Positions 53,242 through 59,356 of a stretch of 64,000 nt of DNA are shown here, piece after piece. Each line of letters begins with the position of its first letter. The stretch's first letter is position 1. The notes under the pieces are model-generated. The model saw only the letters and a program-made list of their open reading frames with translations, ran no database searches and was not told the origin of the DNA. The stretch is from Bacteroidota bacterium (GTDB taxonomy: Bacteria; Bacteroidota; Bacteroidia; Cytophagales; Cyclobacteriaceae): NCBI GenBank assembly GCA_024280115.1, contig JAJRQT010000016.1:1-64000 (forward strand), in the 5' to 3' direction. Made by a program: the position numbers and the translations under genes.

Positions 53242-54624
53242 TCAGAATATCTGAACACCAAAAAAGATCTCAAGAATCGTGATGATGAAAATCGCCCCGA
53301 GCACCGGCGGGCTTATATACTGTAAGGAAAAACTAATATATTTTGCGAGAAAGGTCCTTGGAAATTTCGGATGCCCATGCGAAAGTTCCCTGAATAATTT
53401 ATGACGGTTCCAGACATAAATAGAAAATATACTGACCATCAAACCTCCAAATGGCAGTAAAGTGTTTGATGCAACGTCAGTCACAAAATCCATAAAATTC
53501 ACAGGTTTATCCGCACCAACATAAGTGATGAAATTGGTAAAAAATTCAGAATATCCATTGCCGAGCATCGAGGGGATTCCTAATAAAAAAATAACTGCAG
53601 CCGAATACCAGACTGCATATTTTCTTTTTATTTTATGTTTGTCCACCATATAGGCTACAGGTAATTCCATCAGTGAAATGGTGGAAGTCAGCGCTGCAAA
53701 AGCAAGCAATAAAAAGAAAAGCGCACCGATTATAACTCCAAGTGACGGACCCATGGATTGGAAAATTCCCGGCATGGTCATGAATATTAATCCTGCACCA
53801 CCTTCAGGTTCAATTCCTTGTGAAAATACAAAAGGAAAAATCATTAATCCTGCAAGAAAAGCAATTCCAACATCAGCTATTGTTATAAGAGCACCGGCTG
53901 ACACGATGTTTTCCTTTCTGCTCAAATAGCTGCCGTATGTCATAAGAGCACCGAGACCCAGCGAAAGAGAGAAGAACGATTGTCCCAATGCCCGATAAAT
54001 AACATTCAAATTTAACTTAGAAAAATCGGGAACTAAATAAAATTTAACCCCATCCATGGCTCTATCCAGCGTCAATGCATATATTGTCAGAACAAGGATG
54101 ATGATAATCAGAACTGGCATCAGAATTTTGCTAAATTTTTCAATGCCTTTTGTAATACCCTGGGATACGATATAAGCCGTACCTATTAAAAAGGCGAGCG
54201 CATATCCACCAACTTCAGCGATGTCAGTTACATATTCTTCAAAATGATGGCCTATTTCAAAATTCCCAAGAAGCATTTCAACAAAATAGCCTAAAACCCA
54301 GCCTGAGACTACATTGTAAAATGATAAAATCACCACCGCACAAAACACGCCTAAAATTCCTATAATTGACCAATTAGGATGTCCGAGAGGTTTAAATGCC
54401 AGTGCAGCACTTTTCTGAGCCCTTCTTCCAATGGCGATTTCGCTAACGAGTATAGGATAGCACAAAACGAAGGAAAACAGCAGATAGACAATTAAGAAAG
54501 CCGAGCCTCCTCCTTTCCCGACTTCAAAAGGGAATTTCCAGATATTCCCCAGACCTACCGCGCTGCCTGCTGCCGCAGCTATAAATCCGAATTTATTTGA
54601 AAATTTGCCTCTGCTTGCTGCCAT
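53242..54624 (-). CDS. Sodium-dependent transporter, NSS (SNF) family
   Basis: 460 residues with about 11-12 membrane helices. The first helix has the NSS hallmark FIAAAAGSAVGLGNIWKFPF, which lines the sodium sites, and the second carries a GGGSAFLIVYLL pattern. Other family blocks are PILVSEIAIGRRAQKSA, QSFFSLSLGLGALMTYGSYLSRK and AFAALTSTISLMELPVAYMVD. It is probably an amino-acid:sodium symporter. It converges with tkt, 80 nt apart. Confidence 0.9.
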   Translation of the reverse strand: MAASRGKFSNKFGFIAAAAGSAVGLGNIWKFPFEVGKGGGSAFLIVYLLFSFVLCYPILVSEIAIGRRAQKSAALAFKPLGHPNWSIIGILGVFCAVVILSFYNVVSGWVLGYFVEMLLGNFEIGHHFEEYVTDIAEVGGYALAFLIGTAYIVSQGITKGIEKFSKILMPVLIIIILVLTIYALTLDRAMDGVKFYLVPDFSKLNLNVIYRALGQSFFSLSLGLGALMTYGSYLSRKENIVSAGALITIADVGIAFLAGLMIFPFVFSQGIEPEGGAGLIFMTMPGIFQSMGPSLGVIIGALFFLLLAFAALTSTISLMELPVAYMVDKHKIKRKYAVWYSAAVIFLLGIPSMLGNGYSEFFTNFITYVGADKPVNFMDFVTDVASNTLLPFGGLMVSIFSIYVWNRHKLFRELSHGHPKFPRTFLAKYISFSLQYISPPVLGAIFIITILEIFFGVQIF

Positions 54625-54789: not shown

Positions 54790-54898
54790 AATATAAGTAC
54801 CATTGTCATTTAGTTAAGAATACGATTGTCTTACCTCTCCCTTTACCCTCTCCAGAGAGGGATAATTGGCGCTTAACTAAATGACATTGATATAAGTA
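54790..54898. mobile_element. MITE-like inverted-repeat element with 9-bp direct repeats
   Basis: Arms CATTGTCATTTAGTTAAG (54801-54818) and CTTAACTAAATGACATTG (54872-54889) are inverted repeats with one mismatch. They enclose a 53-bp centre with no coding capacity. The 9-bp sequence ATATAAGTA occurs on both sides (54791-54799 and 54890-54898) as expected of a target duplication, one base off the left arm. The centre contains text (CTTTACCCTCTCCAGAGAGGG) of the kind found in intergenic repeats. The element sits in the gap after the DUF1501 gene. Confidence 0.6.
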
Positions 54899-54917: not shown

Positions 54918-56399
54918 TTAAGCTAAAATTTCATTGATCACCCTACCGCTCACATCTGTCAACCTGAAGGGTCTGCCCTGATATGGATATGTCATTTGTT
55001 CATGGTTAAATCCCAATAAATGCAATATTGTCGCCTGAATATCGAAGGTTGAAACCTGCCCCTCTACCCCACTATATCCAATCTCATCTGTTTCACCAAA
55101 ACTGGTTCCTTTTTTCAGGCCACCTCCGGCCATCCAAATAGTAAATGCATCTGCATGGTGGTCTCTTCCCTTAAATGGATTTGTTTTCCCTTCCCGGTTT
55201 TCCTGCATGGGCGTTCGCCCGAATTCTCCTCCCCAAATCACCAAAGTCTCCTCCAGCAATCCACGCTGTTTCAAATCGAGTACCAGTGCAGTAACCGCCT
55301 TGTCAGTTTGCCTACATTTGTTCACCAAACCAATATCTATAGAGCCTCTCTCCGAAGTTCCATGAGTATCCCAACCCCAGTCAAATAGCTGAACATAACG
55401 CACTCCTTTCTCGATCAATTTTCGGGCCAACAGAGCATTATTGGCAAAAATAGATTTGCTGGGATCGCTACCATACATGTTGTGAATGTACGCTGGCTCA
55501 TCAGCAATATTCATGACCTCGGGAACAGTCGTTTGCATCTTGAATGCAAGTTCATACTGAGAAATCCTTGTGAGAATTTCCGGGTCATTAAATTCATTAT
55601 ATGACAAACTATTTATTTCATTAAGTGCGTTGATTGAAGCTTTTCTTTGATCACGGTTTATATCTTCCGGATTTTTTATAAAAAGCACAGGATCACCATC
55701 GGATCGGCATTGAATTCCCTGGTAAACAGAAGGCAAAAAACCACTTCCCCAAACACTTTTTCCCGCATCGGGATTGTTACCCCCGGAGGTCAATACCACA
55801 TAACCTGGCAGATTGGAATTTTCTGATCCCAACCCATAAGTTACCCAGGACCCCATACTTGGTCTTCCCAATCTTGGGCTGCCCGTGTGCATAAGCAATT
55901 GTGCAGGAGCATGATTGAATTGATCTGTATGAACAGCTTTTAAAAAAGTAAGCTCATCCGCTATAGTCGAGAGATGTGGCAAATAGTTTGAGATCCAGGC
56001 CCCGCTTTCTCCGTGTTGTTTAAATTTTGCCTGCGGACCCAGCATTTTAGGAATTCCGCGGATAAAGGCAAATCGTTTTCCTTCCAGCAGGGATGGAGGG
56101 CACTCTTTTCCATCAAGCTTTATAAGATCAGGCTTGTGCTCAAACAACTCAAGTTGGGACGGGGCACCGGCCATATGTATATAAATCACATTTTTTACCT
56201 TCCCCGGATAATGTGGTGATTTTGGATCCATTGGATTTCCCAGGAAACCTACATTTGGTTTGACTCCGGATGCTGAATTGCCACAACCACCCATCAGTGA
56301 TGAAAGGGCTAATCCTCCCAATCCCATAGAACAGCTTTTTAGAAAATGCCTCCGGGTTTGTTCTTCTAATCTTTTTAGTTTTTCACCTTCTATTGTCAC
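54918..56399 (-). CDS. DUF1501 domain protein with Tat-type signal
   Basis: 493 residues. The N-terminus RRHFLKSCSMGLGGLALSSLMGGCG combines a twin-arginine-like motif and a possible lipidation Cys. The body is the DUF1501 domain, a sulfatase/alkaline phosphatase-like fold: NVIYIHMAGAPSQLELFEHKPDL, ISNYLPHLSTIADELTFL, and LVIWGGEFGRTPMQENREG, GRDHHADAFTIWMAGGG, FGETDEIGYSGVEGQVSTFDIQATILHLLGFNH. These are the typical C-terminal blocks. It always pairs with PSD1 genes; here it lies 99 nt downstream of the PSD1 stop, on the same strand. Substrate unknown. Confidence 0.88.
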   Translation of the reverse strand: MTIEGEKLKRLEEQTRRHFLKSCSMGLGGLALSSLMGGCGNSASGVKPNVGFLGNPMDPKSPHYPGKVKNVIYIHMAGAPSQLELFEHKPDLIKLDGKECPPSLLEGKRFAFIRGIPKMLGPQAKFKQHGESGAWISNYLPHLSTIADELTFLKAVHTDQFNHAPAQLLMHTGSPRLGRPSMGSWVTYGLGSENSNLPGYVVLTSGGNNPDAGKSVWGSGFLPSVYQGIQCRSDGDPVLFIKNPEDINRDQRKASINALNEINSLSYNEFNDPEILTRISQYELAFKMQTTVPEVMNIADEPAYIHNMYGSDPSKSIFANNALLARKLIEKGVRYVQLFDWGWDTHGTSERGSIDIGLVNKCRQTDKAVTALVLDLKQRGLLEETLVIWGGEFGRTPMQENREGKTNPFKGRDHHADAFTIWMAGGGLKKGTSFGETDEIGYSGVEGQVSTFDIQATILHLLGFNHEQMTYPYQGRPFRLTDVSGRVINEILA

Positions 56400-56449
56400 A
56401 GTTTTATTAAATAGGTAATTTATATTTGTTTAGAATTCCAAAGATTTTC

Positions 56450-56498
56450 TAACTCCAGGCTTCCGACTCCTAACTTCGGGCTTCCAACTTCCAACTTC
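56450..56498. repeat. Degenerate tandem repeat of a CTTCCAACTT-like unit
   Basis: Short units such as AACTCCAGGCTTCCGACTCC and AACTTCGGGCTTCCAACTTC recur in tandem right up to the stop of the PSD1 gene. Similar low-complexity runs in Bacteroidota intergenic DNA have no known function. Confidence 0.4.
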
Positions 56499-59237
56499 TC
56501 AATTTTTCATGATAAATTCATCTAGGTTCAGCATAGTATTGGCAACGATGTTCATTGCTCTCCTATGTTTTTCATTTGGAAATTCATTGACTCGATACGC
56601 CACATTTTTAATTAACTCTTCTTCATTTACTTCATCATATAACCGTAGGAGGATTTCCAGTTTCTCCTCCTCAATTTCTTTATACATCATGAGTTTATAT
56701 CCATATTTGATCTGATCAGCCACCTGATTCCCACCGTTCTCCATCATGCGTCTGGCAAAATGCATGGAAGTTTCCACATAAACACTATCGTTCAATGTAA
56801 CCAAAGCCTGAAGCGGTGTATTGGTATTTATCCTTCTGGAAGTACACACCTCCCTGGCCATCACATCAAATAGAAGCATGGATGGGTATGCGCCTGTTCG
56901 TTTCCAATAGGTATAAATAGCCCGTCGGTATTGATCCTCTCCCTCACTCCTAATCCACTTCCGACCATTATAGGGTGAATTCCAGATTCCATCGGGCTGA
57001 TATGGCATTACACTCGGCCCATACATTTTAGGGCTGAATAACCCACTTACCACCAGGGCCTGATCTCGGATCTGCTCTGCGGTCAGACGGATTCGGGGTC
57101 CCCTGGCATAATATTTATTTTTTGGGTCAATATTCAGATGATCCGGTTTGCTAAAGGATGATTGTTGATATGCAGCTGACGAAACAATATATTTTAAAAG
57201 CGCTTTGGTACTCCAATTAAACTCATTCATAAATTTAAATGACAAATAATCCAATAGCTCCCTATGCGTTGGTGGAATCCCCTGGGTTCCGAAGTCTTCC
57301 AAAGTTTCTATAATTCCATATCCAAAGAGTTGTTCCCACAGCCTGTTTACATAGGTTCTGGCTGTTAGCGGATTTTGAGGGCTAACCATCCAGGAAGCCA
57401 AACCGAGTCGATTGGCAGGAGCATCTTCTTGTAAAGTGTTCATAATTTCCGGTACACCCGGTTGTAGCAAACCACCTGTCGTAAGCCAGTTACCCCGCTC
57501 AAAAAGTCTCGTTTCCCGTGCAAGGTCTTTTGGATTCTCAAGCATTATCGGGGTTTTGAGGGTTTTTGCGTTGATCAATTGCCGGAATTTATTTAATGCA
57601 TCAGCGTACCCTTCTGCTTCAGCTCCCGGAAACTGCTCGGTAAAATAAAACCAGTCAAACATCAAACCGTTGTTCAGCGGGTTTTTAAGGTTTGGATTAT
57701 AATAGGTGAAATAAAGATCATGTGTACCGGTGACCTGTTGGAAATTAATTTCATTAAATATCCATTTCTTTTTGGTATCTGCAACTTTGATTTTTTTCAA
57801 AACAGGACCATTAATACTATCCAGGTGAATATCCCATATTCCCCCCGGGAGAAAACTCCTGTACCGGTAAATAAGTGTGTTTTTCCCATCGAGATTTACC
57901 TTCTTTAATCTGCTTGAACCATTATTCCGGAATACCAGCCATTTGGTATCGGCCAGCTCACTATTCACAAAATGATCACTTGTAAGAGAATTAATACTCG
58001 GTTGCCAGGTTTTTACAAATCTTGTGATTTTATCAGCTCGTTTCTTATCCACATTTTCAATAAGCCAATTTTTAAGCTCAACCAATCTGACACTGTCCAA
58101 TCCTCTAAAATCACGTAAAACGGGATAGTCATCAAAAGTATCTTCATCGCGTGAATTATTGAAATATGCCATAAATTTGTAATAATCCTCGTGTTTGAAA
58201 GGATCGTATGGATGAGCGTGACATTGCACGCAGGAAAATGTAGTACCCATGGTCACCTCCCACGTAGTGTTCACACGATCAATTACTGCGGCGACGCGAA
58301 ATTCTTCATTGTCGGTCCCACCCTCATCGTTGGTCATGGTATTTCTGTGAAATGCTGTCGCGATCAATTGATCATCAGAAGGGTTGGGCAAAAGATCTCC
58401 AGCGATCTGCTCGGTTAAAAACTGATCGTATGGCATATCTTTATTAAATGCCCTGATCAGCCAATCGCGATACTTCCAGATCGTCCGGGCATCATCACGT
58501 TCATATCCTTTTGTGTCAGAATACCTGGACAGATCCATCCACATACCTGCCCATTTTTCTCCAAAATGTTGCGAGTTCAGAAGTTCATCAATATAAGCAT
58601 TCAGTGCATATTCAGATGGATCACTTTTTAATTTATCAAAAGCATTATTTGGAGGAGGCAGACCGATTAGATCAAAAGACAATCTTCTGGCAAGAGTAGG
58701 TAGGTTAGCTGGTTGAGAAGTATTGAGTTTCAGCTCTTTTACTTTAGTATATATAAAATTATCAACATCATTTTTTCTCCAGGCTTTAAATTGGTCATCG
58801 CTGGAATACTGATCTGGAATAACTACATTTTCTACAGGAACATATGCCCAATGGGTGCCCCATTTTGCTCCCTGCTCTATCCAATTTTCTAAAATATCTA
58901 TCTCCTTTTTAGTTAGTGGTTCCTTTTCATAAGGCATGCGCTCTTCGGGATCTTTGCTGAGCAGTCGCCTGATCATTTCACTTTGTCCCGGATGACCGGG
59001 TACAATTGCCGGAGTTCCGGATTCTGTATTTCCTTTAGCTTCTGCTTCAAATAACAAGCTGAATCCCCCGTTTTGCTTTACGCCACCATGACAAGTGATG
59101 CAGTGCTTATTCAGGATCGGCTTTACCTGGGTAATATAATCAACTTCTTTATCGGGAATAATCATCCAAATAACCAGACCGGAAAAGACCAGAAGCAGTA
59201 TGATGGGTAATGATTTGGATGATTTCAGTTTTCTCAT
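56499..59237 (-). CDS. PSD1 protein: cytochrome-c-like, DUF1549 and DUF1553 domains
   Basis: 912 residues from ATG 59237 (an ATG at 59252 adds five). An N-terminal hydrophobic anchor is followed by a planctomycete-type cytochrome c domain with a haem motif HCITCH (KHCITCHGGVKQNGG, about residues 45-55) and a downstream Met region. The DUF1549 domain includes SFDLIGLPP, WAGMWMDLSRYSDTKGYERD, and FSCVQCHAHPYDPFKHEDYY with a second CxxCH. The DUF1553 domain has NPLTARTYVNRLWEQLFGYGIIETLEDFG and INTNTPLQALVTLND. Such proteins are common in Planctomycetes and Bacteroidota with sulfatases and DUF1501; the role is not established. Confidence 0.88.
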   Translation of the reverse strand: MRKLKSSKSLPIILLLVFSGLVIWMIIPDKEVDYITQVKPILNKHCITCHGGVKQNGGFSLLFEAEAKGNTESGTPAIVPGHPGQSEMIRRLLSKDPEERMPYEKEPLTKKEIDILENWIEQGAKWGTHWAYVPVENVVIPDQYSSDDQFKAWRKNDVDNFIYTKVKELKLNTSQPANLPTLARRLSFDLIGLPPPNNAFDKLKSDPSEYALNAYIDELLNSQHFGEKWAGMWMDLSRYSDTKGYERDDARTIWKYRDWLIRAFNKDMPYDQFLTEQIAGDLLPNPSDDQLIATAFHRNTMTNDEGGTDNEEFRVAAVIDRVNTTWEVTMGTTFSCVQCHAHPYDPFKHEDYYKFMAYFNNSRDEDTFDDYPVLRDFRGLDSVRLVELKNWLIENVDKKRADKITRFVKTWQPSINSLTSDHFVNSELADTKWLVFRNNGSSRLKKVNLDGKNTLIYRYRSFLPGGIWDIHLDSINGPVLKKIKVADTKKKWIFNEINFQQVTGTHDLYFTYYNPNLKNPLNNGLMFDWFYFTEQFPGAEAEGYADALNKFRQLINAKTLKTPIMLENPKDLARETRLFERGNWLTTGGLLQPGVPEIMNTLQEDAPANRLGLASWMVSPQNPLTARTYVNRLWEQLFGYGIIETLEDFGTQGIPPTHRELLDYLSFKFMNEFNWSTKALLKYIVSSAAYQQSSFSKPDHLNIDPKNKYYARGPRIRLTAEQIRDQALVVSGLFSPKMYGPSVMPYQPDGIWNSPYNGRKWIRSEGEDQYRRAIYTYWKRTGAYPSMLLFDVMAREVCTSRRINTNTPLQALVTLNDSVYVETSMHFARRMMENGGNQVADQIKYGYKLMMYKEIEEEKLEILLRLYDEVNEEELIKNVAYRVNEFPNEKHRRAMNIVANTMLNLDEFIMKN

Positions 59238-59356
59238 TGTAGCAAAGTACAAAATTAATCGCGAATTAGTATGATGATCTTAGCCCATGTTCTTGGAAAT
59301 CATATTAATACTATTGTATAATTTACAATCAATACAAATGATTTGTGAGTTTTTAT

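Follow-up and report, generated by a model that had tools for sequence, protein, structure and literature searches.

A short inverted-repeat element lies between two minus-strand open reading frames (53242-54624 and 54918-56399) in a 64,000-nt stretch of a Cyclobacteriaceae draft genome, hereafter the window. What kind of element is it, what would move it and what does it carry between its ends? The original prediction described a MITE-like form with 18-bp inverted repeats and 9-bp direct repeats, the latter perhaps marking a 9-bp target site, to be mobilised by a transposase encoded elsewhere. We compared the element with copies in its own genome, with transposons of related genomes and with repeats that resemble its core.

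Structure of the window element

The element proper spans 54801-54889 (89 bp) and consists of 18-bp arms with one mismatch and 53 bp between them (Table 1). The near-perfect inverted repeats were thus confirmed, and the middle is non-coding as predicted, with no ORF of at least 80 aa overlapping the element. A second inverted pair (18 nt, at most one mismatch, spacer of 20-100) was not found in the 64-kb window. The window element has a T at position 3 of its own left end. It folds well as a single strand, mostly through its long ends (z -5.55), and 701 bases around it matched no Rfam family at the gathering score. To one side, two adjacent minus-strand ORFs (54918-59252) resemble, by eye, the DUF1501 and cytochrome/DUF1553 pair of Planctomycetes and Bacteroidota.

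Table 1. Features of the window element, in window coordinates.
Feature	Position	Strand	Remark
Left target site duplication ATATAAGTAC	54791..54800	.	9/10 identical to right copy; length from 37 copies
Left terminal inverted repeat CATTGTCATTTAGTTAAG	54801..54818	+	16/18 to type A consensus CAATGTCGTTTAGTTAAG
Left spacer	54819..54834	+	Spacers are the most variable part across copies
Third (reverse-Hoogsteen) tract, GGGAGAG on - strand	54835..54841	-	
Purine tract, GAGAGGG on - strand	54846..54852	-	
Pyrimidine tract, CCCTCTC on - strand	54855..54861	-	
Whole class II intrastrand triplex motif, CCCTCTC-TG-GAGAGGG-TAAA-GGGAGAG	54835..54861	-	7/7 valid triplets
Right spacer	54862..54871	+	
Right terminal inverted repeat	54872..54889	-	17/18 to consensus
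Right target site duplication ATATAAGTAA	54890..54899	.	

Copies in the same genome

We searched the element's own genome (7.22 Mb in 236 contigs, 95% complete) by BLAST with the window element as query. At least 43 pieces were found at no fewer than 40 loci, a lower bound on the copy number because 40 of 64 first-look candidates were scored; the 43 pieces reduce to 40 loci because three copies were split. At 37 of the 40 loci the copies belong to one type (type A) with consensus ends CAATGTCGTTTAGTTAAG, and a scan with the arms alone added three type A copies, each containing a 22-nt insert. The same arms, for which the original prediction had proposed a genome search, therefore recur at many second sites. 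A sister type B, with ends near TAATGCCATTGACTTAAG, was found at three of the BLAST loci and at two more places, one of them truncated by a contig end. The own genome thus holds at least 40 type A and 5 type B copies, about 45 in all. Type A copies are 84-98% identical to a consensus drawn up by eye, i.e. they differ from it by 2 to 16%, so the family does not look recent. The position of the central motif within the element is constant across copies. In eleven type A copies (L011, L038, L039, L041-L043, L045, L046, L291-L293) the loop that separates the third from the purine tract is extended by a hairpin insert of ~22 nt, which shows paired changes (CGCC/GGCG, CACC/GGTG).

MITE-like elements with other cores were also observed. 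In two relatives (G115 and G054; L097 at about 130-247, and L098) the very same ends enclose a core of the ACCTGACAGGT type. The own genome has a third MITE group (type C; L064, L066-L071, L273-L290) of 131-152 bp with ends near CAATGTCAATTAGTTAAG, whose cores are other repetitive hairpins, CACTGCGAGCG...CGATGACG and the GGTCTGTGTCCTCACAGACC type. One of these cores was placed by BLAST at 18 sites, 12 of which had at least one end of at least 14 letters, the core being mis-placed in the other six.

The arm-like sequence CATTATCAGTTAGTTAAT at ten contig ends was considered as a set of IS4-element ends and rejected, as it lies inside one other repeated element. The last ~100 bases of ten own-genome contigs (L052-L061) share a sequence that begins near CACCATAGTCGTTAACC and that directly follows TTTGTGAGGA or TTTGTGTCCTC in about half of them; it looks like a high-copy element targeting a repeated hairpin. 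Among IMG/VR viral contigs, an exact MITE/IS end occurred only once (L309:10958-10975), with no partner of at least 14 letters in the stretch examined.

Target site duplication

The left and right flanks of the 37 type A copies were compared at lengths of 6 to 13. A length of 10 bp stood out (mean identity 0.684 versus 0.409 for shuffled partners, z 11.9), with 9 bp as the next best (z 2.7). The flanks matched at 9 or 10 of 10 positions in 16 of the 37 copies and at 6 or fewer in 15, which therefore show no clear duplication at the refined ends. Direct repeats are thus present where the original prediction placed them, at a length of 10 bp with one mismatch and not 9 bp; the proposed 9-bp target site gives way to one of 10 bp on the family statistics, ATATAAGTA being the identical part of the 10-bp repeat. 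An open frame of at least 120 codons across the insertion was seen at none of the 37 sites, a test that a gene broken by the element would escape.

A full-length IS4-family element with the same ends

In 196 genomes of the same family, the PF13006 (Nterm_IS4) profile gave one sub-threshold match, in G166 (L104). The element found there is 1416 bp long, has both ends exactly CAATGTCGTTTAGTTAAG (18/18) and carries AGTTATATAG on both sides, a perfect 10-bp duplication. Its transposase is a single ORF, an open frame without a stop, and matches NF033592 (transpos_IS4_1; 5.4e-52, 176.9 bits, cut-off 115) as well as PF01609 (DDE_Tnp_1). The Y-2-R-3-E-6-K signature and the D, D residues were found in G166, L107-L110 and L112, the sequences aligned with InsG of E. 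coli IS4.

With the G166 transposase as query, 43 of the 196 genomes gave a relative at an E-value of 1e-3 or lower, weak ones included. Perfect 10-bp duplications flank the elements L109, L112, L119 and L120, the ends of which match the MITE consensus at 35, 34, 28 and 28 of 36 positions; the duplication of L109 lies in a locally repetitive site. Both ends are exact in L107, which lacks a duplication, and in L110; L110 and L108 each start at a contig end. L126 has ends of 35/36 without a perfect duplication, and a broken copy (L118) lies close to a contig end of G131, a genome of the same genus. The ends of E. coli IS4 itself match the MITE consensus at 14/18 and 13/18.

The full-length transposon that the original prediction called for was accordingly found in exact form in a relative of the same family, and not in the own draft assembly. 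No relative of the G166 transposase at E up to 1e-3 and no PF13006 match were found in that draft. It has five PF01609 matches, four of which, read as ORFs, resemble by eye the IS5, ISAs1 and IS982 types; a pair of these ends was present at none of the five loci (including L050, scanned for ends only). Since no IS4-type transposase was found in the draft, the MITE copies are either orphans or have a partner that was not assembled. On sequence grounds, the MITE is probably mobilised in trans by an IS4-type transposase.

Taken together, the element is 89 bp long with 18-bp ends and no ORF of at least 80 aa, has dispersed copies (40 loci and 3 more) with 10-bp duplications and shares its ends with an autonomous transposon in G166. 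It is therefore a MITE with near certainty, as its form had suggested. It is neither a single copy nor devoid of a related transposase, given the many second sites with the same arms and the full-length transposon in a relative.

The core as an intrastrand triplex motif

Repeats of the PIT/BoxC/TM(ECO) intrastrand triplex kind are reportedly the subject of work by Hoyne et al. in 2000. On its purine strand, the window core starts with a pyrimidine tract, followed by the purine tract that pairs with it in Watson-Crick fashion and then by another purine tract running in mirror order. With 7 of 7 triplets and loops of 2 and 4, it fits the class II ITxF definition (stem 6-15, loops 1-6, valid triplets) in the portion of Holder et al. 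(2015, PMC4666352) used here. By its letters the core is a class II purine-motif intrastrand triplex motif of the PIT/BoxC/TM kind, a feature absent from the original prediction, and both triplex formation and a function of the core are putative.

We scanned 65 cores for the motif, 41 from the own genome and 24 from relatives (found by BLAST with the MITE). Under loop limits of 1-10 and 1-8, against 1-6 in the published rule (a difference that affects L092), 40 of the 65 had a perfect class II motif with 6 to 9 triplets, 15 had one mismatch (five of these with only 6 triplets, below the published rule) and 10 failed. None of 1300 letter-shuffled cores reached the element's own score or 6, whichever was larger. 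Seven of the ten failed cores are copies in which the 22-nt insert lengthens one loop past the limit, L078 is intact once correctly framed, and L032 and L091 fail outright. In the relatives, elements of ~87 to 93 bp have the same or similar ends and different middles, and these middles tend to keep the three-tract pattern.

Conservation was assessed in the 40 type A copies. Stems varied at 21 of 832 cells (2.5%), ends at 87 of 1434 (6.1%), loops at 22 of 238 (9.2%) and spacers at 121 of 1023 (11.8%). The corresponding p-values (9e-5 for stems versus ends, 3e-15 for stems versus spacers) are too small, because cells are dependent and 37 of the 40 copies come from the BLAST search that used the window element as query. 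After removal of subfamily-diagnostic columns (a second base in at least five copies), stems remained at 2.5% versus 6.0% for spacers (p 4e-4, likewise too small). The conservation of the stems may be partly BLAST ascertainment, though the three arm-found copies are included.

Co-variation of the third tract with the purine tract

Next to the 65 cores (L078 re-framed), three elements of the MAG CSMAG_1701, five of G066 and one of G035 were included in a test of 74 elements without exclusions. Hairpins were picked blind to the third tract; both sides of each were then compared over six triplets and the higher score was kept, for real and permuted flanks alike. Six of six triplets were reached by 54 of the 74 elements; 19 fell short and one (L032) had no hairpin. 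With each combination of genome and tract entered once, valid triplets numbered 168 of 180; 5000 permutations averaged 158.6 and never exceeded 166 (P 2e-4). The corresponding values were 81/90 versus 75.3 with one row per distinct tract (P 0.007) and 192/198 versus 177.9 for all relatives (P 2e-4). With flanks shuffled letter by letter, the mean was 135 and the highest score 147 of 180. The hairpin has the same sequence on either strand; when mostly the side lacking the third tract was scored, no signal appeared (P 0.74 and 0.88). In a smaller test, with tracts typed from 18 elements and biased because weak elements were left out, 62 of 63 triplets were valid (P 1e-4), and the mirror reading matched at 6 or 7 of 7 positions versus 3 to 7 for the direct-repeat reading. 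The contrast is smaller in the test without exclusions than in the typed set, yet it stands.

Examples of purine/third tract pairs are GAGAGGG/GGGAGAG in the own genome, GAGGGAG/GAGGGAG in G035, GAGAGGA/AGGTGAG in G033 and G184, AGAAGGA/AGGTTGA in G148 (a core of 9 triplets, with T.AT) and AAGAGGG/GGGAGAT in G007 and G066. The class II triplex type permits T opposite A. In G007 and one G066 group the outer position has changed in all three tracts, giving T.AT for the G.GC of the own genome. One G033 element has C opposite A and breaks the triplet rule. In related MITEs, the sequence of the third tract tracks that of the purine tract.

The motif inside and outside MITEs

The pattern CCCTCNC, GNGAGGG, GGGNGAG with variable loops was searched for in the 196 family genomes. 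It was found in 50 of them, and its reversed control in none. Among the matches listed, 118 from 26 of the 50 genomes were examined with 60-nt flanks (60 regions by place, one locus for each of 24 genomes and earlier loci). All 20 examined matches of the own genome lie between IS4-type ends (19 by the script rule, L033 by eye), and a 21st, which has one type B arm, is located at a contig end. The same arrangement was seen for 5/5 matches in G066 (of 7 counted), 1/1 in G035 (of 2) and 1/1 in G083 (of 2). None of the 91 matches examined in 22 other genomes lay between such ends; 22 of the 25 relatives examined thus had none within such MITEs. Five of these 91 have a nearby inverted repeat scoring 10 or 11, without an IS4-type motif; random pairing reached a score of 10 once in 118. 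G033 and G184 have both copies outside MITEs and MITEs with variant letters. Outside MITEs, triplex motifs also form clusters and closely spaced inverted pairs (G140:C53:178-493; G064:C5:580105-580629; G158:C19).

Several kinds of ends surround the core. Inverted-repeat elements whose arms are unrelated enclose the 26-nt core in G010 and G066 (0 to 2 changes) and in G133 (3 or 4 changes). In CSMAG_1701 it lies between ends near TAATGCCATTAACTTAAG in three copies, one with a perfect 10-bp duplication and two with 2/10. The five G066 copies match at 8, 7, 8, 9 and 3 of 10 duplication positions and the G035 copy at 1 of 10; the G066 ends, CAATGCTATTAAGTTAAG, also bound L119 and L120, full elements found in other genomes. 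Several end types around one core may reflect either repeated capture of the core or a core that was retained as transposase and ends were exchanged together.

The exact core was found in one of 296 genomes of a phylum sample, the own genome. A collection of 84,980 species, from which the own genome may be absent, yielded 4 loci, in one Cyclobacteriaceae MAG (three contigs) and one Flammeovirgaceae MAG. A 17-nt piece of the core with at most one mismatch was present in 10 of 196 family genomes versus 5 of 196 with a reversed-control match, and the single 17-nt matches in G114, G125, G149, G169 and G177 are unlike MITE cores.

Origin of the element and alternative explanations

The ends, the target duplication, the copy number, the matching full-length elements in relatives and the third tract that follows the purine tract argue for one reading, which we consider very probable: the window element is an IS4-subgroup MITE without a gene, carrying a G/C-rich intrastrand triplex repeat of the PIT/BoxC/TM type captured between IS4 ends. 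An IS4-type DDE transposase made elsewhere would bind both 18-bp ends, excise the element and paste it into AT-rich DNA, duplicating 10 bp; the cut-and-paste route is assumed by analogy with the family. The triplex repeat between the ends would be either cargo or a working part. This repeat, located outside such ends in most relatives examined, would here have been captured by a pair of IS4 ends and copied along with them, capture being the direction that we infer. We favour a core that is cargo with some selective retention.

That the core is only a Watson-Crick hairpin, terminator-like or acting as RNA, with the third tract a by-product of a repeated pyrimidine tract, seems unlikely to us. 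The CCCTCTC/GAGAGGG hairpin is real, the single-strand fold is strong (z -5.55, mostly the long ends) and the tracts are of such low complexity that permuted flanks already score 158.6 of 180. A hairpin alone, however, leaves the mirror-order match of the third to the purine tract unexplained (P 2e-4; letter-shuffled flanks at most 147/180), as well as the better fit of the mirror over the direct-repeat reading in the biased typed set of 18 and the change in all three tracts, T.AT for G.GC, in G007 and one G066 group; no Rfam family was recognised at the gathering score. That the element is a REP sequence of an IS200/IS605-type (RAYT) transposase is highly improbable. Such sequences would share with the element a short palindrome and many copies, but IS4-type ends and 10-bp target duplications, both present here, are not expected of that class.

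It is also improbable that the triplex repeat is itself mobile and landed inside MITEs after their formation. This would suit the 22 relatives in which all 91 places examined lie outside IS4-type ends, but not the own genome, in which 0 of 20 examined matches are outside such ends, nor the constant place of the motif within the element. Somewhat less doubtful, though still not what we expect, is that the motif is an active part of the MITE, with fork stalling or single-strandedness raising transposition or helping the ends meet, and selection keeping the stems. Its stems vary less than the transposase-binding ends (2.5% versus 6.1%, p 9e-5), and no fewer than three IS4-type end sequences enclose the motif, which is also present in MITE-like elements whose arms are unrelated (G010, G066, G133). 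MITEs with similar or the same ends and other cores (type C of the own genome and the G115/G054 element) point the other way. From the portion of PMC4666352 available, PIT elements arrest polymerase in vitro, in keeping with an active part, and are without effect in vivo, which speaks against it.

Implications

The question addressed by this locus is how bacterial intrastrand triplex repeats spread and persist. What is new is that a mobile element carries and multiplies a repeat class which the E. coli survey (PMC4666352) did not find at mobile elements. Holder et al. (2015) describe no mobile element at the E. coli motif sites, so the present family is a counterexample with a testable route of spread. 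The transposon family that has this repeat as its core is known by its ends, its duplication length and a parent transposase, so that both the spread of the repeat and its effect on transposition are directly testable. A wider proposal, which we offer as speculation with a small chance of being right, is that repeats of the PIT/BoxC/TM kind spread partly as cores of DDE-transposon MITEs, being repeatedly captured between different ends and kept because the triplex raises MITE success, e.g. by stalling forks or by exposing or pairing the ends. Under this proposal, copies not flanked by such ends would in part be remnants of such elements. In the open-access literature searched, no title or abstract joined the triplex motif and MITEs; in the portions seen of PMC5101192, PMC7015867 and PMC8044849, the term occurred only in the reference lists.

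Comparison with known systems

The closest match among transposons is the IS4 subgroup, for which the part of De Palmenaer et al. (2008, PMC2266710) used here gives ends of the form -AATR--------WTW (Table 1 of that paper), direct repeats of 10-13 bp and a size of 1400-1650. The consensus ends fit this form, the 10-bp duplication of the MITEs and of five full-length elements falls within the range, and the G166 parent, at 1416 bp, has the size and the single-ORF DDE transposase with YREK. Unlike these elements, the window element is an 89-bp derivative without a transposase and with a foreign repeat as its core, and the G166 parent matches the Pfam Nterm_IS4 profile only below threshold (not at all in a separate profile scan).

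With PIT/BoxC/TM(ECO), as covered by the excerpt of Holder et al. (PMC4666352), the core shares the class II pyrimidine-purine-reverse Hoogsteen order on one strand and G.GC with A.AT and T.AT triplets, and its letters are similar (CCCTCNC..GNGAGGG..GGGNGAG). The strict TM(ECO) consensus, CCCTCNCCC/GGGNGAGGG/GGGNGAGGG, has 9-nt stems and a second loop of 3 nt; the window core, with stems of 7 nt and a second loop of 4 nt, is TM-like and not strict TM(ECO). The same excerpt reports no stable triplex in duplex DNA or in vivo, and no association of the E. coli sites with transposons, phages or plasmids, nor remnants of transposases or integrases, whereas the window repeat lies inside a transposon.

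BrickBuilt of Porphyromonas gingivalis, from the same phylum, is an intergenic MITE with another repeat class inside, a minisatellite, in about 19 copies according to the part of PMC4596501 consulted. Its core is a 23-nt tandem repeat and not a triplex motif.
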